Part shown: positions 10,211 to 51,703 of the stretch, in pieces
Layout of the letters: every line of letters begins with the position of its first letter
Position numbering within the stretch: position 1 is the first letter of the stretch
Source of the DNA: a virus
DNA length: 51,703 nucleotides
IMG/VR virus record: IMGVR_UViG_3300014911_000009
Location: 1 to 51,703 of that record
Direction: 5' to 3' (one strand)
Program-made: the position numbers and the translations under genes
Notes under the pieces: generated by a model
Databases searched by the model: none
Seen by the model: the letters and a program-made list of their open reading frames with translations, nothing else
What the model was told of the DNA's origin: nothing

Positions 10211-10390
10211 TTAGTTTTCAGGTCGATTTTGTTTACCTTGCATTGGGTTGATTGATGGATTATGTTTCTGTTCTTCAATTTTTCGATATTTTTTACTTCC
10301 ACAATTAGGGCATTGTCCAAACAACATAAATTCCCAATTTTGTCCTTTGTGATTGCAACTTAAACATATCATATCAGTATCATAGCTCAT
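10211..10390 (-). CDS. Zinc-ribbon cassette protein, 59 aa
   Basis: ATG 10390 follows TTGGAGG. CLSCNHKG (about 9-16) and CPNCGSKK (about 27-34) form a rubredoxin-like zinc ribbon, followed by a charged tail (KYRKIEEQKH). It sits upstream of the holin region as the first clear member of the small-gene array. Binding partner unknown. Confidence 0.6.
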   Translation of the reverse strand: MSYDTDMICLSCNHKGQNWEFMLFGQCPNCGSKKYRKIEEQKHNPSINPMQGKQNRPEN

Positions 10391-10397
10391 GTTTTAC

Positions 10398-10437
10398 CTC
10401 CAAGAAATATAACGATTGAGTTAAGCGACGGGCGGAT
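10398..10437 (-). repeat. attC-like site
   Basis: On the minus strand TAATCC..GCCCGTCGCTTAACTCAATCGTTATA spans the stop of the 132-aa gene and ends just before TTGGAGG of the next gene. The right half, GCTTAACTCAATCGTTA, is close to the classical L'/R' part of integron attC sites (GCTTAACTCAAGCGTTA). Confidence 0.55.
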
Positions 10438-28755: not shown

Positions 28756-29031
28756 GTTTGATATAACTAGATTGTACTGTAAGCAACATGACAATGACTG
28801 GTTGTATGCTTATAGCAACTTTTTTCTTAAAAATCCTATTTTTTTTATGCTTATGGTTGAATTTTTATAGGATTAAAAAAGTTAGAAAAAAATATGGAGT
28901 TAAATAACTTTTAGGGATTACTTACATTTCTCGTCCCTGAAATTCCTAAAGTGTCCGCATTACTAATAACATGTTTGTTACTACATCCACCACCACCATC
29001 TTTTTGCCAACAGGTATTTAAAAAAAAGGAC

Positions 29032-29072
29032 GGCAATTCATCCCACGGTTAAAACACGTGGGCTTTCTTGCC
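29032..29072 (+). mobile_element. IS200/IS605-type right-end relic
   Basis: GGCAATTCATCCCACGGTTAAAACACGTGGGCTTTCTTGCC folds with GGCAA/TTGCC outside and CCCACG/CGTGGG inside. The phrase GCAATTCATCCC...GGGCTTTCTTGC is characteristic of IS200/IS605 and IS1341-type right ends, which also form the 3' part of TnpB guide RNAs. No transposase frame adjoins it, so it is a relic or a small non-autonomous copy. Confidence 0.55.
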
Positions 29073-29811
29073 CTGATTTTTTGTAAAAAATGAGACAATA
29101 TAGTAACAAAAAGTGAGAAATGTTACAGAATACGGAATACAAACACTTAACATCCTCTTACCCCATTCTATTTTAGTTGTGGCCATTTCCCTTGCCTATA
29201 TCCCCTTGCTTAATTTTTTTATGGTAAATTTTAAGATAATTTTTTTTGAAATTCCTCAACAATATCAACACCTTAAACCTCTTACCCCAAAACCACTAAA
29301 ATATACCAAAATGACAATTTCCTCAATAATTCCAACAAGTTAAATAAAAAAAATAAAAAGCTCAACAAATATATAGCCCCCTAATATATATATATACATA
29401 TATAAAAAAATATACATATACACTTATATATAAAAATAAAAAAAATAAAATAAAATCCTACTTGTATATATTTATTGATGTTTTTTATATTCCTAACCTT
29501 TCCTCAATAATCTCAATAACTTACACCAATTTTCATTACTTTACCAAAATCTGACAATATACACTAACTACCGAATTCTACTAAGGAAATCAAAAAAAAC
29601 TACCATAAAAAATAAGCAAAAAAACATAAAACCAATAACCAAAAACACCAATCTCTAACACACCAAAAATGAACGCTTGAACAAGGTCAACCACAACACC
29701 ACACACTACAAGAAAAGGATCTCAGGGAATTCTAAAAATTCTGGGTGAGGGACAGTCTGTGGCATTTTTGACACATCAAATTGCCGAACTCCTCGGAAGT
29801 GGGGGGGGGGT

Positions 29812-29838
29812 GTGCATATAATAGATTCTTATATGCAC
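29812..29838. promoter_or_regulatory. Perfect 10-bp dyad next to a G10 tract
   Basis: GTGCATATAA-TAGATTC-TTATATGCAC, preceded directly by ten G and a T. Spacing of the half-sites (centre to centre about 17 bp) suits a dimeric repressor or initiator. It lies in the middle of the divergent gene-free region. Confidence 0.5.
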
Positions 29839-30373
29839 TCATCACGAAACCTCAATGATTTCAAGTACTTAGACAACATTGTCCCATTTTGAAACACACT
29901 GTCCCATTTTGGGACACTCAAAGCATTTCTCTAGTAATTCCAGGTGTTTACAAGTGTTTCTACGGAATTTATCAATGTTGCAGGTGTTGCGGTTTTGCAA
30001 CGGCGTACCAAGTCAATGTTTCTTTCTGAAACTCACTGGCCGTTTTCGTGGGAATATCGTATTCCTTCCCCTTTTCACCTATAGTAGCTCTCCTTTGCAC
30101 TCATGCCAGGATTTATTTTCCTTACTTTTGGGGCTTGTAACTCTTTGAAATTATTAGACTTTTTCCCTTGAAAAAAAATGAAAAAAAATTAAAAAAATTG
30201 CATTTTTTTCTTGACAAAATTTCGCCATTTTCCCCAAATGGTTCTAGTTTTCGAGGAAAACGTTGTAAATGGTTGATATTGTTGGGGATTTGGAGTTTTA
30301 TTAAAAATGTAAACATTGTAAAAAAACCCTGTTTTGGCCTCGTAAGTTATTGATATTATTGAGAAAATTTTTG

Positions 30374-30382
30374 TGGTATAAT
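30374..30382 (+). promoter_or_regulatory. Extended -10 rightward promoter
   Basis: TGGTATAAT, a perfect extended -10 element, 30 bp before the ATG of the first rightward gene. The -35 region is poor (no TTGACA at the right distance), as usual for extended -10 promoters. Confidence 0.6.
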
Positions 30383-30411
30383 GAAATAAAACCGAAAAAG
30401 GAGGCGTAACT

Positions 30412-30612
30412 ATGGAACCTATTGAAATTTTTTCACCAGAGCAGAGGCTCTGGCTGGCCGTCTGGGAGCAAGCCAGGAAAGATGCCCAGGAAGGCCAAGA
30501 AGACGCTCGGTCCTTTCTGGCCGAGTGCAAGCCAATTTTTCAGGTGCTCTTCCATGAGTACCTCGAAACTGAAAATATTTTTCATCAAGGCATGGTCCGC
30601 CATAGCCATTAG
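30412..30612 (+). CDS. Small acidic protein, 66 aa
   Basis: First gene of the rightward operon, ATG 30412 after AAAGGAGGCG. MEPIEIFSPEQRLWLAVWEQ and ARKDAQEGQEDARSFLAECK form helices. Its 3' end lies within a terminator hairpin, so a portion of transcripts would stop here. Function unknown. Confidence 0.6.
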   Translation: MEPIEIFSPEQRLWLAVWEQARKDAQEGQEDARSFLAECKPIFQVLFHEYLETENIFHQGMVRHSH

Positions 30613-30641
30613 GTTCGGCTATGGCAGTCATGCCTTTTTTT
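30589..30641 (+). terminator. Intrinsic terminator/attenuator inside gene end
   Basis: GGCATG and CATGCC enclose GCCATAGCC / GGCTATGGC (9-bp stem, 9-nt loop), followed by seven T. It overlaps the last codons and stop of the 66-aa gene and precedes the AAA ATPase, suggesting partial termination or regulated readthrough. Confidence 0.65.
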
Positions 30642-30644
30642 ATT

Positions 30645-30662
30645 CCCTCCCTTCGGGGAGGG
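30645..30662 (+). repeat. UUCG hairpin, copy 1
   Basis: CCCTCCC-TTCG-GGGAGGG, a 7-bp GC-rich stem with the hyperstable UUCG tetraloop, followed within 25 bp by AGGAGG and an ATG. Identical hairpins precede three later genes at 35298, 35734 and 36474. Confidence 0.7.
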
Positions 30663-30681
30663 GGAAGGAGGAGGAAAAGAA

Positions 30682-32112
30682 ATGAAGTGCGTAAATAATT
30701 ATTTGCAGGCAGGGTATCCCTGTCTATGTGTGCAAACCCATGAAGAAACAAGAGCGATCTCTCGGCTGTCCCAGGAGGCCGAGGGATATAATATTTTCTC
30801 CTGGGACATTGTCGGTGGGTTGGCCGACCACCAGACAGGGCAATCCCGCCAAATGGCCGACCCCCTCGCACCGCTGAATGCGGTTGCTACCCTTCCTGAA
30901 TCTTCCATCCTCTTTCTGAAAGACTTTCACCGCTTCATTGAGGCGGTGGAAGTGATCAGGACGGTGAAGAATCTCATTCCCGTCCTGAAGGCGACTGATC
31001 GCCATGTGGTGATTGTATCGCCTATCCTCAACATCCCCGTGGAGCTGGAAAAGGACATCACTATCCTAGACTTTCAGCTCCCGACCATCTCAGATCTCCT
31101 TGCCACTGCCCAGCGGATAGTCTCGGAAAACGAGTTGTCTGTGCAAGTAGACGAACGGGCTATCAGTGCAGGGAAGGGTCTTACCTTGCACGAGGCAGAG
31201 AATGCTATGGCTCTGTCTCTAGTGCAGGAAAAAATCTTTTCAAAGAAGGTCGTTGAGGCCGAAAAGCTCCAGGCCATCCGCAAATCTGGCCTCATGGAGC
31301 TATACGAACCTGTCCCTGAAGACCAACTCGGTGGTCTTGACCCCCTCAAGCGGTATATCAAAAACCGCAAGAGAGGGTTTGAAGATGACCGACTCCCCAC
31401 TCCAAAAGGAATCTTACTTGTTGGCCTACCTGGTGCTGGAAAGTCCCTCACTGCCAAAGTTACGGCTTCTGTCCTAGATTTTCCTCTCATAAGGCTTGAC
31501 ATTTCCAGCCTCAAAGGCTCGCTTGTAGGTGAATCTGAAGCGAAGATGCGTCAATCTCTTAATCTCATTGATGCGGTTTCTCCCTGTGTGGTGTGGATAG
31601 ATGAAATAGAGAAAAGCTTAGGGGGTGTTCAATCTTCTAATCGAACTGATGGGGGGACTACATCCGCTATGTTTGGGCATCTCCTCACTTGGATGCAGGA
31701 ATCTCAATCTCCTAAATACATCATCGCCACCTGTAACGATATTGACGACCTCTTGACCATTTCTCAAGGTGCTCTCCTCAGACGGTTTGATGACGTATTT
31801 TTTGTGGATCTTCCCTCTCAGTCCGAGCGACAAGAGATCTTTTCTATTATGAATCAGCGTTACAGAACCGATTTTGACCCGTCCTTAGCCTCCAAGATGG
31901 AAGGCTGGACAGGGGCAGAAATAGAGAAATTTGTAATTTCCGCAATCTATGATGGAGAGGATGAGGCTTTCACAAATGTGAAGCCCATCTATCTCCAGAA
32001 TAGGGAAAAAATAGAAAAAGCCCGTGAATGGGCCAAATTCAATGCCCGCCTCGCTAACGGCGATGGGCAGGCCCAAAAGAGCGGGCGGAAAATAAAAATG
32101 GCTACCTGCTGA
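30682..32112 (+). CDS. Ycf46-like AAA ATPase
   Basis: 476 residues. The N-terminal domain (about 1-200, GYPCLCVQTHEETRAISRLS) matches the non-ATPase part of Ycf46-type proteins. Walker A is LVGLPGAGKSLT (about 246-257), Walker B VVWIDEIEKS (about 303-312), with arginine-finger region GALLRRFDDVFF and sensor 2 GWTGAEIEKFV. In cyanobacteria and phages such ATPases are encoded beside DUF1257 (Ycf35-like) and DUF2997 proteins, as here. Likely a remodelling ATPase; its substrate is unknown. Confidence 0.85.
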   Translation: MKCVNNYLQAGYPCLCVQTHEETRAISRLSQEAEGYNIFSWDIVGGLADHQTGQSRQMADPLAPLNAVATLPESSILFLKDFHRFIEAVEVIRTVKNLIPVLKATDRHVVIVSPILNIPVELEKDITILDFQLPTISDLLATAQRIVSENELSVQVDERAISAGKGLTLHEAENAMALSLVQEKIFSKKVVEAEKLQAIRKSGLMELYEPVPEDQLGGLDPLKRYIKNRKRGFEDDRLPTPKGILLVGLPGAGKSLTAKVTASVLDFPLIRLDISSLKGSLVGESEAKMRQSLNLIDAVSPCVVWIDEIEKSLGGVQSSNRTDGGTTSAMFGHLLTWMQESQSPKYIIATCNDIDDLLTISQGALLRRFDDVFFVDLPSQSERQEIFSIMNQRYRTDFDPSLASKMEGWTGAEIEKFVISAIYDGEDEAFTNVKPIYLQNREKIEKAREWAKFNARLANGDGQAQKSGRKIKMATC

Positions 32113-32142
32113 GCTACAGCAGGAGAAAGGAGGTATTGTATT

Positions 32143-32553
32143 ATGGGATATAGTAATATAGAAATTGTCAATGATCCCTTAGAGGGTGAACTATTAATAG
32201 CTCAAGGAGAACGGCGAAAGGGCGGAGCGTATATTGCTCGTATTGTAGGCCTAGACAAAAAATATAAATATGCTCGTGAGTTTATTTCTGAAAGAGAAAA
32301 TGACTGGAAAAGTGGAATTGTTACTGCCAAAGTTCCGCTTTCTGATCTTAGCATGCCGTGGGATTTGCTCGAAATTAGGGCAGGGGGTTCGTGGAAAAAC
32401 GATTATAGAGGGTTCTACCTCTATGATGCTATAGAAAAAGATGTTGAAACTATTAATGAAAAGGTGTTGAGGGAAAAACTTGCAGAAACATTGAAACCCA
32501 CACCCATCCAAGCCGAGCATGAAAAAAAGGTGGAGAGGAGGATAAAAGTATGA
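32143..32553 (+). CDS. Hypothetical protein in the ATPase module, 136 aa
   Basis: ATG 32143 after AAGGAGG. MGYSNIEIVNDPLEGELLIA starts a beta-rich domain with GAYIARIVGLDKKYKYAREF, then a long helix near the C-terminus. It overlaps the DUF1257-like gene (4 bp). Conserved position inside the module suggests a partner of the AAA ATPase; no family recognised. Confidence 0.6.
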   Translation: MGYSNIEIVNDPLEGELLIAQGERRKGGAYIARIVGLDKKYKYAREFISERENDWKSGIVTAKVPLSDLSMPWDLLEIRAGGSWKNDYRGFYLYDAIEKDVETINEKVLREKLAETLKPTPIQAEHEKKVERRIKV

Positions 32554-32909
32554 GCCACACCATGAATATAGAAATAGAGTTGCACGACAGGCAGGCCCTT
32601 GAGCAAGCTTGCCAAAGGCTTAGCCTGACCCTCGCTGAGGGGAAGGTCAAGTTCTACAGTACAGAAGAGGAAGGGATGCTTGTCCAGCTCCCAGGGTGGA
32701 AGTATCCCATTTGCATAAAAGAAAATGGCCATGTTTCTTACGATAATTACAATGGCCAATGGGGCAAGATAGAAAAATTAAACAAACTCCGTGCTTATTA
32801 TGGCATAGAAAAGGCCAAAATTGAGGCACGGAAACAGGGATGTTCTGTATATGAAACTTATAATAACCGTACTCAACAGCTTGAGCTGCGGATAAGAGTA
32901 GGAGGTTAG
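32550..32909 (+). CDS. DUF1257/Ycf35-like protein
   Basis: 119 residues starting MSHTMNIEIELHDRQALEQA, close to the family's typical MSHFT.I.T.I.D...L..AL opening; the middle has VQLPGWKYPICIKENGHVSY and a tyrosine-rich C-terminus ending in ELRIRVGG. Family function is unknown. The combination with Ycf46-like and DUF2997-like neighbours makes the call credible. Confidence 0.7.
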   Translation: MSHTMNIEIELHDRQALEQACQRLSLTLAEGKVKFYSTEEEGMLVQLPGWKYPICIKENGHVSYDNYNGQWGKIEKLNKLRAYYGIEKAKIEARKQGCSVYETYNNRTQQLELRIRVGG

Positions 32910-32910
32910 T

Positions 32911-33114
32911 ATGAAAGAAATAATTTTGAAATTTGACACCAAAACTGGCGAATGCCAGATCGAGGCCCAGGGTTTTCGTGGCAAGTCTTGCCAAGACGCC
33001 ACAGAGTTTTTGAAAAAGGCCCTCGGCCAGTGCACCGATTTTCGGCGGAAGGCCGAATGGTACGAAAAAAACCTCAAACTCAATGGTTGCGTTGTGAGCA
33101 ACCATTGTGGATAA
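32911..33114 (+). CDS. DUF2997-like protein
   Basis: 67 residues. MKEIILKFDTKTGECQIEAQ then GFRGKSCQDATEFLKKALGQ matches the DUF2997 pattern (Ix-G-x-ieveGF-GksC---t-fleeaLG). Starts two bases after the preceding stop, so translation is coupled. Role unknown; part of a three-gene module. Confidence 0.7.
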   Translation: MKEIILKFDTKTGECQIEAQGFRGKSCQDATEFLKKALGQCTDFRRKAEWYEKNLKLNGCVVSNHCG

Positions 33115-33124
33115 GGAGGTAATT

Positions 33125-33790
33125 ATGGCAAAAATTACTAAAATTTCTCAACAGGCTCTATCTGCTCCCTCCCTCCCCGCCATCCTGGCAGAGTATGGTG
33201 ATCTCCACTGGAGTATCACTGTGGGGAAAAAACCGAGAGGGTTTTGGAGACCCCCTCTAACAATCAAGTTCTGGCATGAGGGGATAGAGGGGGATAATCT
33301 CAATGCTCTAAACATTGATCCCAATCTGTCAGTTCTGGAATTTCTTTGCCAGGTTTGGGGGATGGACGATAGCGGATTAGAAAATTTCCTCTATTGCCAC
33401 AGTTGTTCCGAGTGTCGCAAAGAGAAAGTATTCCAATTCTTGAAGTGTCCTGTCGTATTTTGGAATGCCTCTGATCCTCATACAGCACAAACAAATGCGT
33501 GCAACCTTCGAAAATTAATAGACAGATTCAACTTCTTTTGTGAACAAACTACCACTATCTTCCCAGACTGGCGACCTGGTCGCCCTGATTATTCTGACGT
33601 GATTGACTGGGTTCGTAGAAAAGTCTGCGAACCAATCACAGAAGAATACAACAAACGGATATTAGAGGCTTACCAGTCTGAGCCGATCGAGGAGGAGACC
33701 ACGATTTCCTCTGAGACGGTGAAGATGGAGGCTATTCAAAAAGAAGTTCAAGAAAAGAAAAGGCCATCCAGAAAACTAAAGATGGCCTGA
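33125..33790 (+). CDS. Hypothetical protein, 221 aa
   Basis: ATG 33125 after AAGGAGG. The N-terminus (AKITKISQQALSAPSLPAIL) leads into a beta region, then CHSCSECRKEKVFQFLKCPV with four Cys for a metal site, and a Lys/Glu-rich end. Last gene before a 660-bp gap with structured RNAs. Family not recognised. Confidence 0.6.
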   Translation: MAKITKISQQALSAPSLPAILAEYGDLHWSITVGKKPRGFWRPPLTIKFWHEGIEGDNLNALNIDPNLSVLEFLCQVWGMDDSGLENFLYCHSCSECRKEKVFQFLKCPVVFWNASDPHTAQTNACNLRKLIDRFNFFCEQTTTIFPDWRPGRPDYSDVIDWVRRKVCEPITEEYNKRILEAYQSEPIEEETTISSETVKMEAIQKEVQEKKRPSRKLKMA

Positions 33791-33814
33791 AATGAAAGGA
33801 GGTGAGAGTTTTCC

Positions 33815-34140
33815 CTACTGTCACGCTGTGGTTGGGAGCGATAAAACCAGCTTGCAGGGTGCAAGTCCTGCAGGTGAGCGAAAGACCCTCCAACCTAGCT
33901 ACTTTTGTAGCGAAAAAGGGGTAATCGGATGAGGAGGATGGCGTCGAAAGGGTATAGACCCTAAGAACACTGCGTCCTGCATGACCCAAGAATCCGTGAC
34001 AAGATGATGTCGTGCTTTGTCATGCAAGCTAAGTCGTTTGGCCGTGGTGAGCCTCGATCACGGTTAGGAAAAGACAGACGGCGAAAAGACCCAAATACTC
34101 GTAGGATTGTGCATAAGCTGCCTACGAGGAGAGGCGATTA
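33815..34140 (+). ncRNA. Structured RNA candidate, HEARO/omega-RNA-like
   Basis: No gene fits, but many stems do: GGTTGGGAG/CTCCAACC (33832/33889), CTTGCAGG/CCTGCAG, GCTAC-TTTT-GTAGC, GGGTATAGACCC, GCATGAC/GTCATGC, CCGTG/CACGG and CTCGTAGG/CCTACGAG. The order GGGTGCAAGTCC...GACCCTCCAACC.AGCTAC resembles what I recall of HEARO RNAs, the guide RNAs of IscB-type nucleases. No IscB lies nearby, so it would be a solo copy. A group II intron remnant is the main alternative. Confidence 0.5.
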
Positions 34141-34151
34141 AGATTTTTTTC

Positions 34152-34179
34152 TTGACAACTAAGAAGGGGTTGTGTTAAT
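34152..34179 (+). promoter_or_regulatory. Promoter of the 34.19-kb RNA
   Basis: TTGACA (34152-34157) preceded by a T-rich stretch, 16-bp spacer, GTTAAT (34174-34179). The TTTTTTCTTGAC context recurs at the promoters at 42048 and 48501. Start expected near 34186. Confidence 0.55.
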
Positions 34180-34186
34180 CTAATCA

Positions 34187-34420
34187 AAATTCTTGGTGAA
34201 ATCCCTGGCACTAAGACCAGGTGAGGAGATTGGCCATCTCCAAAATGACCTGACTGGAAGGCCAATGGCAAACGGTGTTCCAATGAAGGGATTATCTACC
34301 AAGAATCTTATGGAGGTGCTTCCCTCCATTAAAACAAGGGTTGAAATAAAATTTTTTCTTAATTTTTGGGAAGCACCTCTATATGAAACCCCATCTTGAT
34401 TGTCAAGGTGGGGTTTTTTA
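34187..34420 (+). ncRNA. Highly structured ~235-nt RNA with own promoter and terminator
   Basis: Three independent long helices are visible. ATTCTTGGT (34189-34197) pairs with ACCAAGAAT (34298-34306), extended by ATCCC/GGGAT, enclosing CTGG/CCAG and GAGAT/ATCTC hairpins: a multibranched domain. GAGGTGCTTCCC (34313-34324) pairs perfectly with GGGAAGCACCTC (34368-34379). ACCCCATCTTGA/TCAAGGTGGGGT (34388-34414) followed by T6 is the terminator. A 68-codon GTG frame exists but follows the stems and has no ribosome binding site. I do not recognise the family. Confidence 0.7.
34388..34419 (+). terminator. Intrinsic terminator
   Basis: 12-bp stem with one G-T pair, 3-nt loop and a T6 tail, located 28 bp before the ATG of the DHH gene. 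Transcription of that gene then needs readthrough or a promoter within the short gap. Confidence 0.8.
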
Positions 34421-34447
34421 TTTAGGAAGAAAGGGGGGTAGGACAAA

Positions 34448-35296
34448 ATGTATAAAATCTATACCCATATGTACCCAGATTTAGATTGTCTTTGTTCTCT
34501 CTATCTTCTTGAGAAAATCCACGGAGAGATAGAGATTGAGTTTATTTCCATTCAAACAGATCCCCTCCCTAAAGGAGATAATATTTTGGTAGTAGATATT
34601 CTTGGAGGGGACATTGACCATCATGATGAATCTGGAGAGACCTCTACCTGTCAAAAAATCTATGATGCTCATCCGGAGATTCATAGTCCTGCCTTAGGTG
34701 TGTTGGTAGACTACTGCCACCGATCTGATATTATGAAACTCACCAAAGAGGAGACAGGAGGTAATTCCCTGAAATTTTGTATCTTTGTAACCAGGGATAC
34801 TTGTCATGATTACCACCTGATCTATCAAATCTTCAAGACTATCGCTAACAAAGTCTATGAAGACCCTGCTTATCTTATCCATTTTGCACGTTCTCATATC
34901 CTTGCTATGTATCCATCTGTTAGGAAATATTTTGATAATTATGAGAAGTATATGGCTGCCCAAAAAGATTGGATAGAAGTCTGCCAGATAGGTAATCTAT
35001 GGGTAGCAATCAACGAATCAGAGGAAAATCTGACCTCGTTCATCTTTGACAATTATCCCCATGTTGACCTGATAATCTACAGAAATCCCCAGAAAGATTG
35101 GGCGGGGTTTGTTAAGAGGAGTGAGGAAAGAAAGGTTGGGGTAGACCTAGAAAGAATATATAATACATTGAAAGAAAAAGAGAAGGGTTGGTTTTTGCAT
35201 AAGAGTGGTAATCTTCTTTTGTGTGGAACGCCGAAGGCACCGTTGGCAAAGACTACCTTGACAGTTCAGGAAATGGTTGAGTTGTTAAAAATCTAA
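34448..35296 (+). CDS. DHH-family phosphoesterase
   Basis: 282 residues. HMYPDLDCLCSLYLLEKI supplies the first metal ligands (H-x-D-x-D) and DILGGDIDHHDE the DHH motif; a VDYCHRSD segment resembles motif III. The C-terminus lacks an obvious GGGH of DHHA1, ending AKTTLTVQEMVELLKI. Such enzymes degrade short oligonucleotides or cyclic dinucleotides. Whether this one acts on phage recycling or on host signalling cannot be told. Confidence 0.75.
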   Translation: MYKIYTHMYPDLDCLCSLYLLEKIHGEIEIEFISIQTDPLPKGDNILVVDILGGDIDHHDESGETSTCQKIYDAHPEIHSPALGVLVDYCHRSDIMKLTKEETGGNSLKFCIFVTRDTCHDYHLIYQIFKTIANKVYEDPAYLIHFARSHILAMYPSVRKYFDNYEKYMAAQKDWIEVCQIGNLWVAINESEENLTSFIFDNYPHVDLIIYRNPQKDWAGFVKRSEERKVGVDLERIYNTLKEKEKGWFLHKSGNLLLCGTPKAPLAKTTLTVQEMVELLKI

Positions 35297-42083: not shown

Positions 42084-43214
42084 ATGAAACTCACCGTGAA
42101 AGTTAAATTGCTTCCCACTCAAGAACAGAAAGACTCTCTCGTTAAAACCATTGAGGTTTTCAATGAAGCTTGTAATTATATTTCCCAAATAGCTTTCGAG
42201 AAAAAAACCTTTGGCCAAGTAGGTTTACACCATCTTTGCTATCGGGAAGTCAGAAACAAATATAAACTTTCTGCCCAGTTGACCGTTAGGGCAATCGGCA
42301 AAGTTTCTGAGTCCTATCGTGCCGAAAGGAAAACTCTGCATATTTTTAAAAAACATTCGGCACTTGTCTATGATCAAAGGATTCTTTCTTTTAAGGGTCT
42401 CGACACTGTTAGCATTCTCAGTCTTGATGGTAGGTTCAAAATCCCTATCGTTTTTGGTAAATATGCCAAGCTTGATCAAAGAAGAGTTCGAGGACAGGCT
42501 GATCTTATTTACAAGAAAAACAATCTTTTTCTTTACCTTTGCGTAGAACTCCCCGATGGGATACCGATTGACCCCAAAGGAACGCTTGGTGTAGATTTTG
42601 GCATTGTCAATCTTGCTACCACCTCTGATGGAAAAACCTTCTCTGGTAAGCAAGTTAACACCGTGCGTGAACGTATGGCCAAGATTAAAAAATCCTTGCA
42701 GAAACGTAATTCTAAGTCTGCCAAAAGACATCTTAAAAAGCTTTCCGGTAAAGAAAGAAGATTTAAGAAGCACGTGAACCACATCATTTCCAAAAGAATT
42801 GTTCAAATTGCGAAAGACACCTCCCGTGCCATTATCCTTGAGAACCTCAAAGGCTTCAACGGAAGGAAAACGGTTAGGAAAGAACAAAGAGAACAATTTG
42901 GAAAATGGGCTTTTAACGAACTTAGAAGATTTATCGAATATAAGGCACAGATTGCAGGGGTTCCAGTAATCGCTGTTGACCCACGGAATACTAGTCTTAC
43001 CTGTAGTCAATGCGGATATATTTCTAAATCCAACCGAAGATCTCAATCTAAGTTTGTCTGTAAGCAATGTGGTTTCTCCCTAAATGCCGACATAAATGGC
43101 GCAATCAATATTTCTCAAAGGGCTGTCGTAAACCAGCCTATCGCAGTCCATGCTGATGTTGCTATTGCTCCCGTTCCTGGAACTGCAATGCCCCGCCAGC
43201 TTACTACGGGGTAG
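42084..43214 (+). CDS. tnpB: TnpB RNA-guided nuclease
   Basis: 376 residues. RuvC motif I VDFGIVNLAT (Asp near 171), motif II AIILENLKGF (Glu), the zinc ribbon CSQCGYISKSNRR...CKQCG and motif III LNADINGAINI (Asp) are all present, so the nuclease looks intact. N-terminal REC/wedge part starts KLTVKVKLLPTQEQKDSLVK. TnpB cuts DNA at sites next to a target-adjacent motif, guided by omega-RNA, and keeps its element in place. No accompanying TnpA. Confidence 0.92.
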   Translation: MKLTVKVKLLPTQEQKDSLVKTIEVFNEACNYISQIAFEKKTFGQVGLHHLCYREVRNKYKLSAQLTVRAIGKVSESYRAERKTLHIFKKHSALVYDQRILSFKGLDTVSILSLDGRFKIPIVFGKYAKLDQRRVRGQADLIYKKNNLFLYLCVELPDGIPIDPKGTLGVDFGIVNLATTSDGKTFSGKQVNTVRERMAKIKKSLQKRNSKSAKRHLKKLSGKERRFKKHVNHIISKRIVQIAKDTSRAIILENLKGFNGRKTVRKEQREQFGKWAFNELRRFIEYKAQIAGVPVIAVDPRNTSLTCSQCGYISKSNRRSQSKFVCKQCGFSLNADINGAINISQRAVVNQPIAVHADVAIAPVPGTAMPRQLTTG

Positions 43215-43215
43215 T

Positions 43216-43572
43216 TTATCCCAATAACTTATCTGCAATTTTGTCGGCAACTACTGTTAAAATAGCTATTCCAAAAGCTCCCAAAATCCCTATAACTATC
43301 TTTGCCTTTCCAGATAGCACATCTACCTTGACCAATCCATTGGAAATCTTATTGTCCCACAATTCCCATAACTTTGACGTTTGTTTCTCAAGGTGAGACA
43401 CTTTTTGTCCTATCTCGCCTTTAAACAGGCCGTTTTTAATCCTATTTTCAAGAAACTGGTCAAGCTTTGCGTTAATAGAATCAGTCTTTTTATCAAGATT
43501 CTCCACGCTTTCCTTTATCATACCTAAAGTTTCACTAAAACTCGAATGTTCAGAACAGAATTCTCCAGCCAT
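43216..43572 (-). CDS. Hemolysin XhlA/holin-like protein, 118 aa
   Basis: A helical, charged N-terminal region (SETLGMIKESVENLDKKTDS, about 10-70) ends in one membrane helix (KIVIGILGAFGIAILTVVAD, about 90-110) near the C-terminus. That layout matches small XhlA-type or spanin/holin accessory proteins. It follows the DGR genes and directly abuts the TnpB element, whose insertion may have cut off downstream sequence. ATG 43572 follows AAGGAC. Confidence 0.5.
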   Translation of the reverse strand: MAGEFCSEHSSFSETLGMIKESVENLDKKTDSINAKLDQFLENRIKNGLFKGEIGQKVSHLEKQTSKLWELWDNKISNGLVKVDVLSGKAKIVIGILGAFGIAILTVVADKIADKLLG

Positions 43573-43618
43573 TTGTTTGTCCTTGATTATTTATAATCTT
43601 GTCTCCATATCACAAAAA

Positions 43619-43915
43619 TCATATAAAAGTATAATACTTATCTATTTTCTTAATGGTCGCATAAAATGGCAATTCTTTTTTATACATTTCGATTTGCTCA
43701 ATAAGCACTGTTGAACCGGTAAAAAGCACATGTTTCTCCTCATCAAGCATAAATTGTAGAGTAAGGCAAGGGGTCTGTGAATACTTGCTTGCACCGAGAC
43801 GATAATTCAAAATTAGAATCTCCCTATTCAATACATCGTTGATGCTACATTTTGATCCTTCTAAGGGTTGATGGCCTTTTGCAAAATCACTAAAACGTTT
43901 CTTGATTTTGTGCAT
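43619..43915 (-). CDS. DGR-linked small protein, 98 aa
   Basis: ATG 43915 overlaps the 3' end of the reverse transcriptase by 26 bp. MHKIKKRFSDFAKGHQPLEG, then INDVLNREILILNYRLGASK and HVLFTGSTVLIEQIEMYKKE, predicts a compact beta-rich fold (possible OB fold). It is not the usual Avd four-helix protein. Overlap with the RT suggests an accessory role in mutagenic retrohoming, which is inference. Confidence 0.55.
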   Translation of the reverse strand: MHKIKKRFSDFAKGHQPLEGSKCSINDVLNREILILNYRLGASKYSQTPCLTLQFMLDEEKHVLFTGSTVLIEQIEMYKKELPFYATIKKIDKYYTFI

Positions 43916-44918
43916 AATTCAATATCTCCTGTAGTTCATCCAACTTCAGTCTCTTTCTCAAATTATAAGCATTAGCCCATTTTAGCCAACCCATAATAGA
44001 TGCTAAAGATGATCTAAATTGGTCTAGTGTTATTTGACCTTTAATTAACATGTCTGGCAGCTTCTCTAATCTTCTCTTGATTCTTTTTGCTGTACTCTTT
44101 CTAACCAAGATGTATTTTGGGAAATGTCTATATCCCAGAAAGTCAACACCTCGGGATACTGGGAATAAATCACATTTGCTCAAACATAACTTCAATCTGG
44201 CCATTAAAAACTCTTTTATAAGATATGCCATATCACCAAGCCATTTCTTGTCATTATGGAACAGGCAAAAATCGTCACAATAACGGATGTAATGTTTTGT
44301 CTTGTGCTCATGCTTTAGAAATTGGTCTAATTCATTCATATATAAATTCCCAAACCATTGGCTCGTATAGTTGCCAATTGGTACATTTTTGCCGCCTAGG
44401 CATGAATAAATAATGTCTCTAATTAGCCATAATGTATCAGGACATTTAATTTTTTGTTGAATGATCTCATACAAAATATCGTGGTCCACAGAGGGATAAA
44501 ATCTAGAGATATCCATCTTCAGGCAATATTTATTTTTACGAATAAACTCCATTGTACGCCGACTTCCGGCATGAATTCCCTTGCTCTTCCGGCAAGCATA
44601 TGAATCAGAAATAAACATAGCATCCCAAATAGGCTCTACCACATTCATCAAAGCATGTTGCACAATTCGATCTGGATTGAACGGCAATTTATAGATAATA
44701 CGTTTCTTTGGCTCATAAATAATCTTTTCTTTATATTGAGATGTTGTGAAAGTCTTGTTTGTTAATGAATCCTGAATAGCGAAAAGATTCTCATCAAAAT
44801 TTCTGTCAAATCGTTTAATCGTATTTTGCCACCCCTTGCCTTTGCGAGCAGATAAATAGGCTCGATAAATATTGTCAACATTGGTTATTTTAGGCCATAG
44901 GTTGCCGTGCCTTCTCAT
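43890..44918 (-). CDS. Diversity-generating retroelement reverse transcriptase
   Basis: 342 residues. First catalytic Asp in YCLKMDISRFYPSV (about 136), the DGR-type motif IGNYTSQWFGNLY (about 181-193) where group II intron enzymes differ, and RYCDDFCLF (about 212-220) with the two further Asp. The YCDD in place of YADD or YMDD is a minor variant. It would copy the template RNA from 45046-45158 with adenine mutagenesis. ATG 44918 lies 127 nt past the template. Confidence 0.93.
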   Translation of the reverse strand: MRRHGNLWPKITNVDNIYRAYLSARKGKGWQNTIKRFDRNFDENLFAIQDSLTNKTFTTSQYKEKIIYEPKKRIIYKLPFNPDRIVQHALMNVVEPIWDAMFISDSYACRKSKGIHAGSRRTMEFIRKNKYCLKMDISRFYPSVDHDILYEIIQQKIKCPDTLWLIRDIIYSCLGGKNVPIGNYTSQWFGNLYMNELDQFLKHEHKTKHYIRYCDDFCLFHNDKKWLGDMAYLIKEFLMARLKLCLSKCDLFPVSRGVDFLGYRHFPKYILVRKSTAKRIKRRLEKLPDMLIKGQITLDQFRSSLASIMGWLKWANAYNLRKRLKLDELQEILNYAQNQETF

Positions 44919-45045
44919 AAAACTTTTTGATATGGGTAGCTTTCGACTATCCTACTAACTACCCTACATCCTCCGTTTTGTGTTTTGCCAGACTTATGCC
45001 TGACAGGGCCGACAGATCCAGCCAGGAGTATCGCTCCGTCCTGGA

Positions 45046-45158
45046 TCCGACTGCCTGCGACTGCCGATATTCGTATTCGTATTCCAGTGATAGTTATTCG
45101 CATTACGACTCTGGGAACTGCAATTCGTCCCATTATTCCAATTACCGCCCGCCAGCAG
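45046..45158 (-). repeat. DGR template repeat (TR)
   Basis: 113 bp, minus strand, between target gene and RT. Its conceptual translation is Asn-rich (GGNWNNGTNCSS, NTNTNIGSR), the usual enrichment of AAT/AAC codons. It aligns to 45222-45334 without gaps; all 15 differences are at template A. Template A content by count is 33. Confidence 0.95.
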
Positions 45159-45211
45159 TGCACTTTCATGACCTGTCAGCCTCCAAAATTCCCGTGTTAC
45201 GCTCTCTCGAT

Positions 45212-46438
45212 TTATAGTGGCTCCGACCGCCCGCGACCGCCGATATTCGTATACGTATGCCAGCGATAGTTATACGCAGAACGACCCCGGGAACCGCAAT
45301 ACGTCCCACTATTCCAATAACCGCCCGCCAGCAGCTTCACATCACCATATGTCCCTTGCTTATACAATAAGCCTTTTGTGCCTGGGAGATCATACCAAGC
45401 CCAGGACGGATCTCCTGTATCGGGCAAACCATCCACTCGAAACGATTGATCTCTTAGCCATTGCCACAGCACCCCACAACAATCCTCACAACCAATATTA
45501 GAGATCATACGTCGGCCAGCAGTATCAGAATGGCCACCAGTAGTTACAGGATCGGCTGATCCAGAGATGTTGGTTTCTTCATTGCTACCACGAGCTAATG
45601 ATTGAAATTCTAAGTCGTCTTCCATTATCATCCCAACTTTTACCAGCCTGTCAACGTAATCCATCCAGTTAATGTTATCAAGAATAGTGGCACCATACAC
45701 ACTTTGAACTCCACCAGCGCTATCGTCAGAGCCCAAGTATATCATTTCCCAGCCGTTGGTCCCGTCGTCCCAGGCCAGGCCAGCATTGCTCATATTTTTA
45801 TTGCGGGCACGATGTTTAAGGTCCCAGATCGAAGCGGGCAATATATCATTGGCATAATAATTGGCTAGATCGTGTTCTCTACACGTCCAAGTCACAGTGT
45901 CATCAACCACGGTATCTCCTGGTGTAGTAGGCCATGTTGGTTCAGAGGCCCCCGAAGTCCCCGCCACAGTGGCCTCATACCAGTATCCATTATCGGTCGT
46001 AGGGGCTCGGAAGTCTCCCTCGCTATATGCAGTCGATGCAGCCCAGTCCGGGGGATCGGCATCTGCGCAGAGAGTATGAAAGCCTCCAATCTTACGTGAA
46101 TTATTCGCCGTGAAGCCTGACGGATAGGTACTATTCAATGAAATCTTGAATGCCAGGCTTCCGTTATCGTCACATGCATATACATAATAATCCTTGCCAT
46201 TGCTTATCGTGCCAGTGTCAAGGTCTGTAGCTGTACTAATATCAACATCAGTATCCGTAAAAAACCAGTTATCCCCGATTTTTAATGGGACAAGATTGCT
46301 TCCCTTAAACACAATCTTGCCATGATCGCTAGAATGTGCTTCCAACAATCTGTCGTTCTTGTTGAGATAGAAATTAGCCAGGATGGCTGCTGCCTTGATG
46401 TTGTCAGACATATCTTTTACTACTTTAGCATTACTCAT
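45212..46438 (-). CDS. DGR target: lectin-like tail protein, 408 aa
   Basis: A long N-terminal part with tail-fibre character (phrase WPTTPGDTVVDDTVTWTCRE, about 170-190, is a repeated phage fibre motif) leads to a C-terminal C-type-lectin-like domain starting near QWLRDQSFRVDG. The last 38 residues are the variable region, LLAGGYWNSGTYCG...GGRGRSEPL. Variation there changes surface residues for receptor binding. It overlaps the upstream gene (ATGA). Confidence 0.9.
   Translation of the reverse strand: MSNAKVVKDMSDNIKAAAILANFYLNKNDRLLEAHSSDHGKIVFKGSNLVPLKIGDNWFFTDTDVDISTATDLDTGTISNGKDYYVYACDDNGSLAFKISLNSTYPSGFTANNSRKIGGFHTLCADADPPDWAASTAYSEGDFRAPTTDNGYWYEATVAGTSGASEPTWPTTPGDTVVDDTVTWTCREHDLANYYANDILPASIWDLKHRARNKNMSNAGLAWDDGTNGWEMIYLGSDDSAGGVQSVYGATILDNINWMDYVDRLVKVGMIMEDDLEFQSLARGSNEETNISGSADPVTTGGHSDTAGRRMISNIGCEDCCGVLWQWLRDQSFRVDGLPDTGDPSWAWYDLPGTKGLLYKQGTYGDVKLLAGGYWNSGTYCGSRGRSAYNYRWHTYTNIGGRGRSEPL
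45222..45334 (-). repeat. DGR variable repeat (VR)
   Basis: Located at the 3' end of the target gene, ending nine bases before its stop. Fifteen substitutions relative to TR, for example AAT to TAT, AGT to GGT, CAG to CGG, CAC to CGC and AAT to TCT; none at template G, C or T. Identity ends after TCGGA/CCA near the stop. Confidence 0.95.
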
Positions 46439-49095: not shown

Positions 49096-51703
49096 TTAAT
49101 TAGCTGCTATTTGTTTAGCTTCCTCTAAAGTTATGCCTTGTTTTTGGCATAAAACTTGCAGTATTTTCTCAGTCTCTTGTAGCTTCTTGTATGTTTCTGC
49201 ATGGCAGAACATGGAAAATTTACTCATGGCCTTAACTTTCATGAAATGGTGGCCATCATCGTTGACTGTGATAAGACCTGCTCTATCAAAGGCATGGAGA
49301 TTATGACTGATAACCTCATTAGCTTTGCCTGCCATGTGGCGAGAGAAGTCATGGGCAAGTTCAAGATCGTTGTAGTCATCCCAGGCGTTTTCTGTGAGAG
49401 TAGCATCGAGATGGAGTTCACCATTAGCAATAATTTCAGCTGCTAGATTCGTAGAGCCTCCTTCTATTAATGAAAATTTAAATTTACCTTCTTCTGTATC
49501 AGCAGTTACATTTACTGTTTCTAGTACGATAGAGCCATAATTAGTACTAGATTGTTTAAAATATATCTGCCCAGGATGATCACCTATAGCAGGAGTGCTT
49601 GGGTTGTGAACAAGACATAGTGATGCTCCACTGGTTCCAGAATAATTAGCATAAATTTGAAATCTACCTGAAACATTAGTTTGGCCTATTCTACAGATTA
49701 TATCGGAATAAGCATCAATGATGAAATCTAGACCACTTGTTTCTGTATATAATTTTGTGTTATAGCTGTTATCAAATACTAATTCCGCAGATGCTGAAAA
49801 ATCTCCTTTTATCTTAAGCTGTCCACCTACAGGTATTGTAAAAGCGTCCACAGAAAGTAAAAGCTGTGTCCCATCCCAATTTAAATATAGTTCATCATTT
49901 CCGATGTAAAACTTTGCTCTATCAGAGTCACTATCGTCTATGCCTAAAATAAATCCATCATTCACTCCCTTGACATCATCTATCCAAATAGTACAAGCCC
50001 CCAAATCCGTTACATATTTCAACCCCACCGAGATGATAGCTGTATCACTTCCAGGATTAGCCAGGGGCAGGGTAACTTGTGTCCAGGTGTTAGCAGAGAG
50101 GGCTGGTATATCAAGAGTCTCCAGTGGACTAGCGCAATTTGCGGTATCATCAAGAAGTAATTGCAAATCACCGCTTGCTGTTGCTACCGAACATTTTATC
50201 CACAATCTTACCTCGGAGGCTTTCGACAAATCTAATGAGGTTATGGCTTCGGTAGCAAGTATATCGCCAGCCGAAGCCCCAGCGACCACTTCCAGTTTAG
50301 CTGAGGCAGAACCTGCTTTATAATCGGATGTATCGGCGGTCGATGTCACATCAGTATCTACGCTTTCGCTCCAGGCATCATCGCAATTTTCAATAAGCCA
50401 GTAATTGACGAAATCCGTATTATGACAAACCGTGCAATCCGGTAATAGAAATAATTTGTTCCCATCTATATTAAATCCATAATAATCTCCGACCCCAATA
50501 GGTTCAACAGTAAAAGAATATAGGGAATAATTTTTAACTCTTCCATTTTTAGTGATAATTTTTCTATCTATTTTTATTGGTAATTCAGAAAAAGTATCAC
50601 TACCAATACGTATCCTAAAGTATTTAGCTCCTTTGATAATTTTTATTCTCTTTTCTCCAACGTAAAAACCAAGAGATAGAGCTAATCTTCTAACAGCATC
50701 AATTAGTGATTCGTTTTTATTACAAAATTCATAGTTATTATTGTTTATATTCCCATCTGAGTCTATCAATCCAGCGAGAAGTTTCATTCTGGTTTCCCGA
50801 TCATTTACAAGGTATTCTTCTGGAATATGTTTATTCCCAAGCACGCCTAACTTTCTTAATTCTTTTTGGAGTGACCATTTATGCCTGCCTCCTTGATATC
50901 CTGTTGTTATGCGCACATATTTTGCATTATTATTTGGCAAAACATCAAGGCGACACTCCAAACCAAGCTCAAAAGCATATCCTTGTAAAAAATCAATTAT
51001 TTCTTTATCTGCCGTGGTAATCGCAACTGAATTAGAAGTACCATCACCCAACCATAAGCCTAAAAAATATGGGTCTATAGAGACCTCTTTGTGCGGATAC
51101 TCAACTGAATTTTTATATGCCTTGTATCCATGTTTAAATGAATCAGACGACAATAGATAATTTGCTACAGATATATTCTTTGTGGTTATATACATTTCTT
51201 TTTTGCGACAATGAAAATAATGCCTTTTCAAAGAAAGAATATGTGATTTATTACATACAAAACTATCACCATTATTAAGAGTGATCTTATACATTTCTTC
51301 TTGTCCACGTCCAAGATTTAATACTTTTCTAGGGGTTGAATCATCACCCATAATTAAGTCTCCGATTACAATATCCTCGACTTTTTTAATAGAGCCATCA
51401 TACATTAAAATCTTAGTCCCTTTCCCAAAACATTTCCCCGCATTGAAAAATACGTCTCCGGCCCCTGGGTCAACTGCCAGGGTAACGGCTTTAGAGGTGA
51501 TCGTTCCGGCGGTGAGTTTGTTGACGGACAGGTCAGTAATATAGGCATCTCCGATAACACTTAAAGTTGCTAAATCTCCTGCATCAGATAAATTGGCAAG
51601 ACCAGAACCACCCTGAATCACTACCTTTCCTTTTATCGTTAAGGTATTAGCTTCAGAAATGTTCCAATCTATAAGATTATTGGCATCTCCCTGAAACTTA
51701 AAT
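49096..51703 (-). CDS. Tail fibre-like protein interrupted by an intein (partial)
   Basis: The frame is open to the right edge of the window, so the N-terminus lies outside. The visible N-extein (ISEANTLTIKGKVVIQGGSG..DVFFNAGK) and C-extein (TDFVNYWLIENCDDAWSESV onwards) are Gly/Ser/Thr-rich, beta-structured tail material with a C-terminal helical tail (ETEKILQVLCQKQGITLEEA). A 338-residue intein separates them. Carbohydrate-binding-like segments (TSDYKAGSASAKLEVVAG) appear after the insertion. A mature fibre requires splicing. Confidence 0.85.
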   Translation of the reverse strand, partial: FKFQGDANNLIDWNISEANTLTIKGKVVIQGGSGLANLSDAGDLATLSVIGDAYITDLSVNKLTAGTITSKAVTLAVDPGAGDVFFNAGKCFGKGTKILMYDGSIKKVEDIVIGDLIMGDDSTPRKVLNLGRGQEEMYKITLNNGDSFVCNKSHILSLKRHYFHCRKKEMYITTKNISVANYLLSSDSFKHGYKAYKNSVEYPHKEVSIDPYFLGLWLGDGTSNSVAITTADKEIIDFLQGYAFELGLECRLDVLPNNNAKYVRITTGYQGGRHKWSLQKELRKLGVLGNKHIPEEYLVNDRETRMKLLAGLIDSDGNINNNNYEFCNKNESLIDAVRRLALSLGFYVGEKRIKIIKGAKYFRIRIGSDTFSELPIKIDRKIITKNGRVKNYSLYSFTVEPIGVGDYYGFNIDGNKLFLLPDCTVCHNTDFVNYWLIENCDDAWSESVDTDVTSTADTSDYKAGSASAKLEVVAGASAGDILATEAITSLDLSKASEVRLWIKCSVATASGDLQLLLDDTANCASPLETLDIPALSANTWTQVTLPLANPGSDTAIISVGLKYVTDLGACTIWIDDVKGVNDGFILGIDDSDSDRAKFYIGNDELYLNWDGTQLLLSVDAFTIPVGGQLKIKGDFSASAELVFDNSYNTKLYTETSGLDFIIDAYSDIICRIGQTNVSGRFQIYANYSGTSGASLCLVHNPSTPAIGDHPGQIYFKQSSTNYGSIVLETVNVTADTEEGKFKFSLIEGGSTNLAAEIIANGELHLDATLTENAWDDYNDLELAHDFSRHMAGKANEVISHNLHAFDRAGLITVNDDGHHFMKVKAMSKFSMFCHAETYKKLQETEKILQVLCQKQGITLEEAKQIAAN
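50419..51432 (-). mobile_element. Intein with LAGLIDADG homing endonuclease
   Basis: 338 residues starting CFGKGTKILMYDGSIKKVED (Cys1, block A), block B with CNKSHILSL, LAGLIDADG motif 1 LGLWLGDGTS, motif 2 LLAGLIDSDGN, and the ending PIGVGDYYGFNIDG...LPDCTVCHN followed by Thr as +1 residue. His-Asn at the C-terminal splice site and both endonuclease motifs are intact. It sits between GK and TD of a tail protein. Confidence 0.93.

Follow-up and report, generated by a model that had tools for sequence, protein, structure and literature searches.

A structured RNA is, close to certainly, encoded between positions 34187 and 34420 of the window (the whole stretch of DNA analysed here, a 51.7-kb IMG/VR virus record). 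The explanation ranked first, to which an even chance is given, is that this element constitutes the 3' half of a structured leader of about 620 nt (about 33797-34420) that ends in a transcription attenuator. Three lines of evidence are considered below: the fold of the element itself, a conserved RNA directly upstream, and a long inverted repeat whose downstream arm is part of the terminator.

Genomic setting

The element is held in a 657-bp gap between two genes of the same strand, p33107 and a gene for a DHH-phosphoesterase-like protein (Table 1). The operon is co-directional, in the order AAA ATPase, DUF1257-like, DUF2997, p33107, RNA, DHH-like gene, with the first three genes at 30682-33111. 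Relatives of the AAA ATPase occur in hundreds of phage and plasmid records and in 420 IMG/VR stretches. The AAA-DUF1257-DUF2997 set is common across phages, plasmids, and cyanobacteria, and no function is known for it. The DHH-like protein matches Pfam PF01368 weakly (E 0.0094, under the Pfam cut-off), and its C-terminal part (34916-35206) bears a weak resemblance to FosB (phmmer E 5e-4) that is probably due to chance. Peptide-pattern searches for relatives of the DHH-like protein, p33107, and the RuvB-like protein returned none.

Genes elsewhere in the window include an integrase, a Gp3-like recombination directionality factor, and a sliding clamp. A diversity-generating retroelement lies at 43216-46438, with a reverse transcriptase (43890-44918, minus strand), an Mtd-like target (45212-46438, minus strand), and two small open frames (43619-43915 and 43216-43572, minus strand) that may be accessory genes. 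A TnpB-type RNA-guided nuclease gene (42084-43214) is about 53% identical to a Geobacillus plasmid TnpB. An 841-aa protein (49096-51621) carries Hint and LAGLIDADG domains, as an intein-like insertion. The AT-rich region 28800-30680 (about 1.9 kb) has no clear genes, and gene direction and GC skew switch there, making it a candidate origin or control region.

Table 1. Positions of the RNA elements, the open frame, and the neighbouring genes in the window
Feature	Position	Strand	Remarks
Upstream gene p33107	33107-33790	+	227 aa; homologues in L023 and G001
Upstream RNA part, non-coding	33797-34147	+	GC 50% against 40% for the genome; homologue in virus L023
Hairpin h1, GCTAC/GTAGC	33898-33911	+	L023: AAGGT/ACCTT; 5 pairs kept, all changed on both sides
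Core, TAATCGGATG ... GACCCAAGAATCCGTGA	33922-33999	+	
Core helix, CGGAT/ATCCG	33926-33930/33992-33996	+	
Core inner helix, GGATG/CGTCC	33936-33940/33973-33977	+	
Core apical hairpin, AGGGT/ACCCT	33949-33962	+	
Helix GTCGT/ACGGC enclosing hairpin CCGTG/CACGG	34033-34082	+	
Hairpin h8, CTCGTAGG/CCTACGAG	34098-34128	+	L023: CTAGG/CCTAG
Arm 1, proposed antiterminator arm	34151-34171	+	Contains TTGACA; 18/21 complementary to 34387-34407
Domain A, multibranched	34187-34308	+	Closed by 34189-34197/34298-34306 plus 34200-34206/34287-34293
68-codon open frame	34193-34399	+	Spans domain A, hairpin B, and the terminator 5' arm
Hairpin B	34309-34383	+	16-bp stem, 43-nt AT-rich apical part
Intrinsic terminator	34385-34420	+	Arm 2 with arm 3, plus T6 tail
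Arm 2	34387-34407	+	Terminator 5' arm plus loop; partner either arm 1 or arm 3
DHH-phosphoesterase-like gene, proposed as regulated	34448-35296	+	282 aa; motif DHHDE

A folded RNA ending in an intrinsic terminator

The RNA 34187-34420 folds at -97.1 kcal/mol (z -7.7), a stability equalled by none of 200 shuffles. Taken separately, domain A, the hairpin, and the terminator have z-scores of -3.9, -6.5, and -6.2, respectively, and no shuffle out of 300 reaches any of them. The three long helices of the initial annotation are found at their sites and, given the z-scores of the whole and of its parts, are real rather than the product of chance. The plus strand folds better than its complement (-97.1 against -86.2 kcal/mol).

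In domain A, where helix P1b is taken from the minimum free energy and centroid structures, a loop-loop pairing is possible between ATTGGCC (34229-34235) and GGCCAAT (34260-34266). The perfect 12-bp hairpin GAGGTGCTTCCC/GGGAAGCACCTC is present at 34313-34324/34368-34379, and its stem extends to 16 bp (34309-34324/34368-34383, with one G-U pair). The terminator also holds up, with a stem at 34385-34417 comprising 15 pairs and followed by a T6 tail. The fold thus supports a strongly structured RNA with an intrinsic terminator at its end.

The same segment had been described as lacking a convincing gene. This stands as far as homologues are concerned, since none of the 68-codon frame is found in Pfam, PHROGs, PDB, or the fetched loci, but not for codon usage, which is gene-like: the score of the frame (0.092) is above those of all 93 spurious frames and exceeds 89% of real-gene windows. 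The frame, read from GTG 34196 or ATG 34265, could encode a phage protein to which the hairpins are secondary, or the leader peptide of an attenuator. We consider this improbable, as no clear ribosome-binding site precedes the GTG and perfect 16-bp and 15-bp hairpins are unusual within a gene. Nevertheless, the frame stays a real alternative, leader peptide included, since it ends with a stop codon inside the terminator stem.

A conserved RNA directly upstream

The sequence between p33107 and the element, 33797-34147, contains no gene-like frame as judged by codon usage. Alone, it folds barely better than shuffles (z -1.5), and the case for an upstream RNA therefore rests on its conservation. 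An alignment of this operon's AAA ATPase was used to gather eighty IMG/VR loci. In one of them, virus L023, the non-coding DNA behind a p33107-type gene resembles 33913-34118, with a blastn E of 0.002; the local alignment scores 36, and the best of 1000 shuffles scores 22. This homologue occupies the same place, behind the AAA/DUF1257/p33107-type operon. The two RNAs have an identical 17-nt core in common, and GACCCAAGAATCCGTGA, TAATCGGATG, and CGGCGAAAAG are unchanged in both. A search of 50 related virus records with the core-motif pattern matched L023 only.

Compared with L023, the proposed helices h1, h3, h4, h7, and h8 are kept with two-sided changes, and h6 with one-sided changes. For instance, the counterpart of 34033-34082 is GCCGT/GCGGC enclosing CCAAAGG/CCTTTGG. 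As the comparison involves two sequences, with the register of the variable hairpins set by hand, it supports the upstream fold without proving it. Compensatory changes, which the initial annotation had put forward as a check, are thus seen between two sequences in the upstream helices, while the three helices that it named lack a clear homologue. The element can no longer be called an orphan, since the flanking 33797-34147, which had been overlooked, is conserved RNA. Because this RNA has the same operon position in L023, a transcript spanning 33797-34420 is plausible.

About 1.3 kb behind the homologous RNA, L023 encodes a TnpB-like protein of the guided_TnpB family (L023:11224-13019), preceded by a weakly HTH-like 184-aa open frame.

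A putative switch between two helices

A repeat search reveals an inverted repeat of 21 nt (86%) at 34151-34171/34387-34407. In 2000 dinucleotide shuffles of the upstream 590 nt, the 18/21 complementarity of these arms was never reached, and two shuffles reached 17. Among 326 further stretches of the genome the highest count is no more than 16, and the other three terminator-like sites of the window, all weaker, reach just 13-14. According to the computed pairing, the arm 1-arm 2 helix and the terminator helix are mutually exclusive and near-isoenergetic. In the predicted ensemble, the arm 1-arm 2 helix has a probability of 1.00 for RNA 3' ends at 34408-34412, 0.48 at 34415, and 0.07 at 34420, where that of the terminator is 0.93. 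When the 5' end is set at 33797, the trend is the same, the arm 1-arm 2 helix falling from 0.93 to 0.13.

An intrinsic terminator thus stands 28 nt ahead of the same-strand DHH-like gene, and an upstream arm excludes it by pairing with its 5' arm, to an extent beyond chance. From these folding models, the layout looks like a transcription attenuator placed before the DHH-like gene. Pairing of arm 1 with arm 2 would enclose domain A and hairpin B in a single unit and mask the 5' arm of the terminator, so that RNA polymerase would continue into the DHH-like gene. Otherwise, arm 2 would pair with arm 3 and transcription would end at the T run. Binding of a molecule, a protein, or a ribosome could stabilise or open domain A and/or hairpin B and so decide between the two outcomes. 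Transcription from an upstream start, regulation of the read-through, and the sensing of some signal are all inferred. At 21 bp, the antiterminator would be long for a switch controlled by a ligand, which counts against the attenuator reading.

The repeats could also bound a MITE-like, palindrome-ended mobile element (34151-34407). Terminal inverted repeats do lie exactly at the ends of the structured block, but a second copy is absent from the window, the 18-mer end matches only two unrelated IMG/VR sites, no target-site duplication is seen in the flanks, and a terminator that looks functional sits at the right end. This origin is very improbable.

In another reading, the upstream RNA would be a processive antitermination element, similar to put of HK022 or to EAR, that modifies RNA polymerase. 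The polymerase would then pass the terminator at 34420 and later ones as well. The put RNA is short, with two hairpins, and nothing of the kind was found by the Rfam scan, which makes this reading quite unlikely. In its favour, the nascent RNA is structured and located directly ahead of a terminator within an operon, and put provides a phage precedent for a cis-acting antitermination element (PMC9378689).

It can also be observed that 34095-34118 and 34158-34180 both resemble the 5' arm of one L023 hairpin (10301-10323), as if arm 1 were a duplicate of hairpin h8.

Promoter and independent transcription

The attenuator reading needs arm 1 to be in the transcript, and transcription would therefore have to start upstream. 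If it started at about 34187, arm 1 would have no role in the RNA. Such a start is what the initial annotation had suggested, with an independent RNA of about 235 nt made from its own TTGACA-type promoter; it would be ended by the terminator and would act in trans as a small RNA. The perfect -35 hexamer, the possible -10 box GTTAAT at 16 nt, and the strong fold (z -7.7) with its terminator are all in line with this view. However, GTTAAT is the best -10 near this hexamer and is weak (4/6, with position 2 not A), TTGACA occurs 52 times in the window, and a promoter scan gave no plus-strand site between 33298 and 34707. The promoter claim is, therefore, not upheld: the hexamer is part of the left arm of the inverted repeat, paired with the terminator. 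The independent-RNA claim is left unsupported, since the -35 box makes more sense as one strand of a helix in competition with the terminator. An independent RNA also leaves the highly significant complementarity of arms 1 and 2 unexplained, and its immediate upstream neighbour, with the same orientation and in the same operon, is a conserved structured RNA. The small RNA is accordingly ranked second, as a doubtful alternative, behind the leader with an attenuator.

On the minus strand, TTGACA-17-TATAGA (34406-34378) is found within the terminator and may be an antisense promoter directed into the element.

Domain A and the putative switch in other viruses

Domain A aligns weakly but collinearly with the last part of the L023 leader (10337-10432), and the two share CTnGGnGnAnTCCC, GCAC, TGAGGnG, GGCCA, and TTAnCTnCC. 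The whole 3' segment scores 19 against the L023 leader, a value equalled by 2 of 1000 shuffles. For domain A alone, this number ranges from 2 to 709 of 1000 depending on the scoring scheme, and 1.4% of unrelated stretches match L023 as well as domain A does. On sequence grounds, common ancestry of domain A and the L023 leader end is possible, without being proven. A three-way junction common to both was discarded as evidence of homology, the shape being found in 7-13% of shuffles.

Nothing in L023 corresponds to hairpin B, the terminator, or the arm 1-arm 2 pairing. The switch part is not seen to be conserved: in L023, the one distant homologue, the next gene is not DHH-like and has no terminator before it. 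In G001, the closest relative by AAA ATPase (75%), a p33107 homologue is present, but neither RNA part follows it; at L117:57-1025, G001 shows two tandem p33107-type genes, again with no RNA behind. No close copies of the RNA 34187-34420 were found in the phage, plasmid, and IMG/VR searches made, and blastn of the region against phages and plasmids gave nothing or chance matches. A ribonucleotide-reductase match was rejected, being in another reading frame. Pattern scans of IMG/VR and GTDB with the repeat arm, the closing helix of domain A, and the upstream core gave no hits or unrelated ones.

A bolder proposal goes beyond the attenuator, and we hold it to be unlikely: 33797-34420 would be one ornate RNA of about 620 nt and of a new class, with a two-domain fold whose 3' domain A is common to L023. 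It would be a fixed partner of some versions of the phage AAA-DUF1257-DUF2997 set, and here it would also switch transcription of the DHH-family gene. Few large structured RNAs are known from phages, and most of them lack an explanation. Were this RNA a partner of the gene set, it would offer a handle on the set; the termination switch, if true, would reveal what the phage senses.

Comparison with known RNAs

At the gathering score, no Rfam family is found in the whole window, including 6S, GOLLD, ROOL, OLE, raiA, and riboswitches. Relaxed thresholds, applied to the window, the segment, and L023, gave sub-threshold matches to MIR319, PyrR, and RsaE only. The best of these, MIR319 and PyrR, reach roughly half of the score needed and are artefacts of long hairpins. 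The PyrR attenuator (RF00515) gives the best attenuator-type alignment, at 34302-34421, over the hairpins and the terminator. Membership was nevertheless rejected (27.8 bits against a cut-off of 54, and no pyr gene). A group II intron was also dismissed, as the whole record has no domain V (RF00029) at E<=10 and no D1D4 match, although the upstream segment has, by eye, loops similar to those of domain I (GGTGCAAGTCC and GCGAAAG).

Like GOLLD, ROOL, and OLE (PMC12286853), the proposed leader would be a structured RNA of about 500-600 nt in a phage or bacterial operon. It differs from them in having no Rfam match, only two known members, and a predicted shape. With attenuators and riboswitch platforms (1:2 / 2:3), it has in common exclusive helices sharing one arm, a U tail, and a gene directly behind. 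In contrast to them, 215 nt separate the arms here, the sensor would be much longer, and it corresponds to no known aptamer family or ligand. Whereas the short put RNA of HK022 acts on RNA polymerase, the switch described here is predicted to act by pairing. The likeness to put, by analogy, would be that of a phage nascent RNA controlling termination in cis (PMC9378689).
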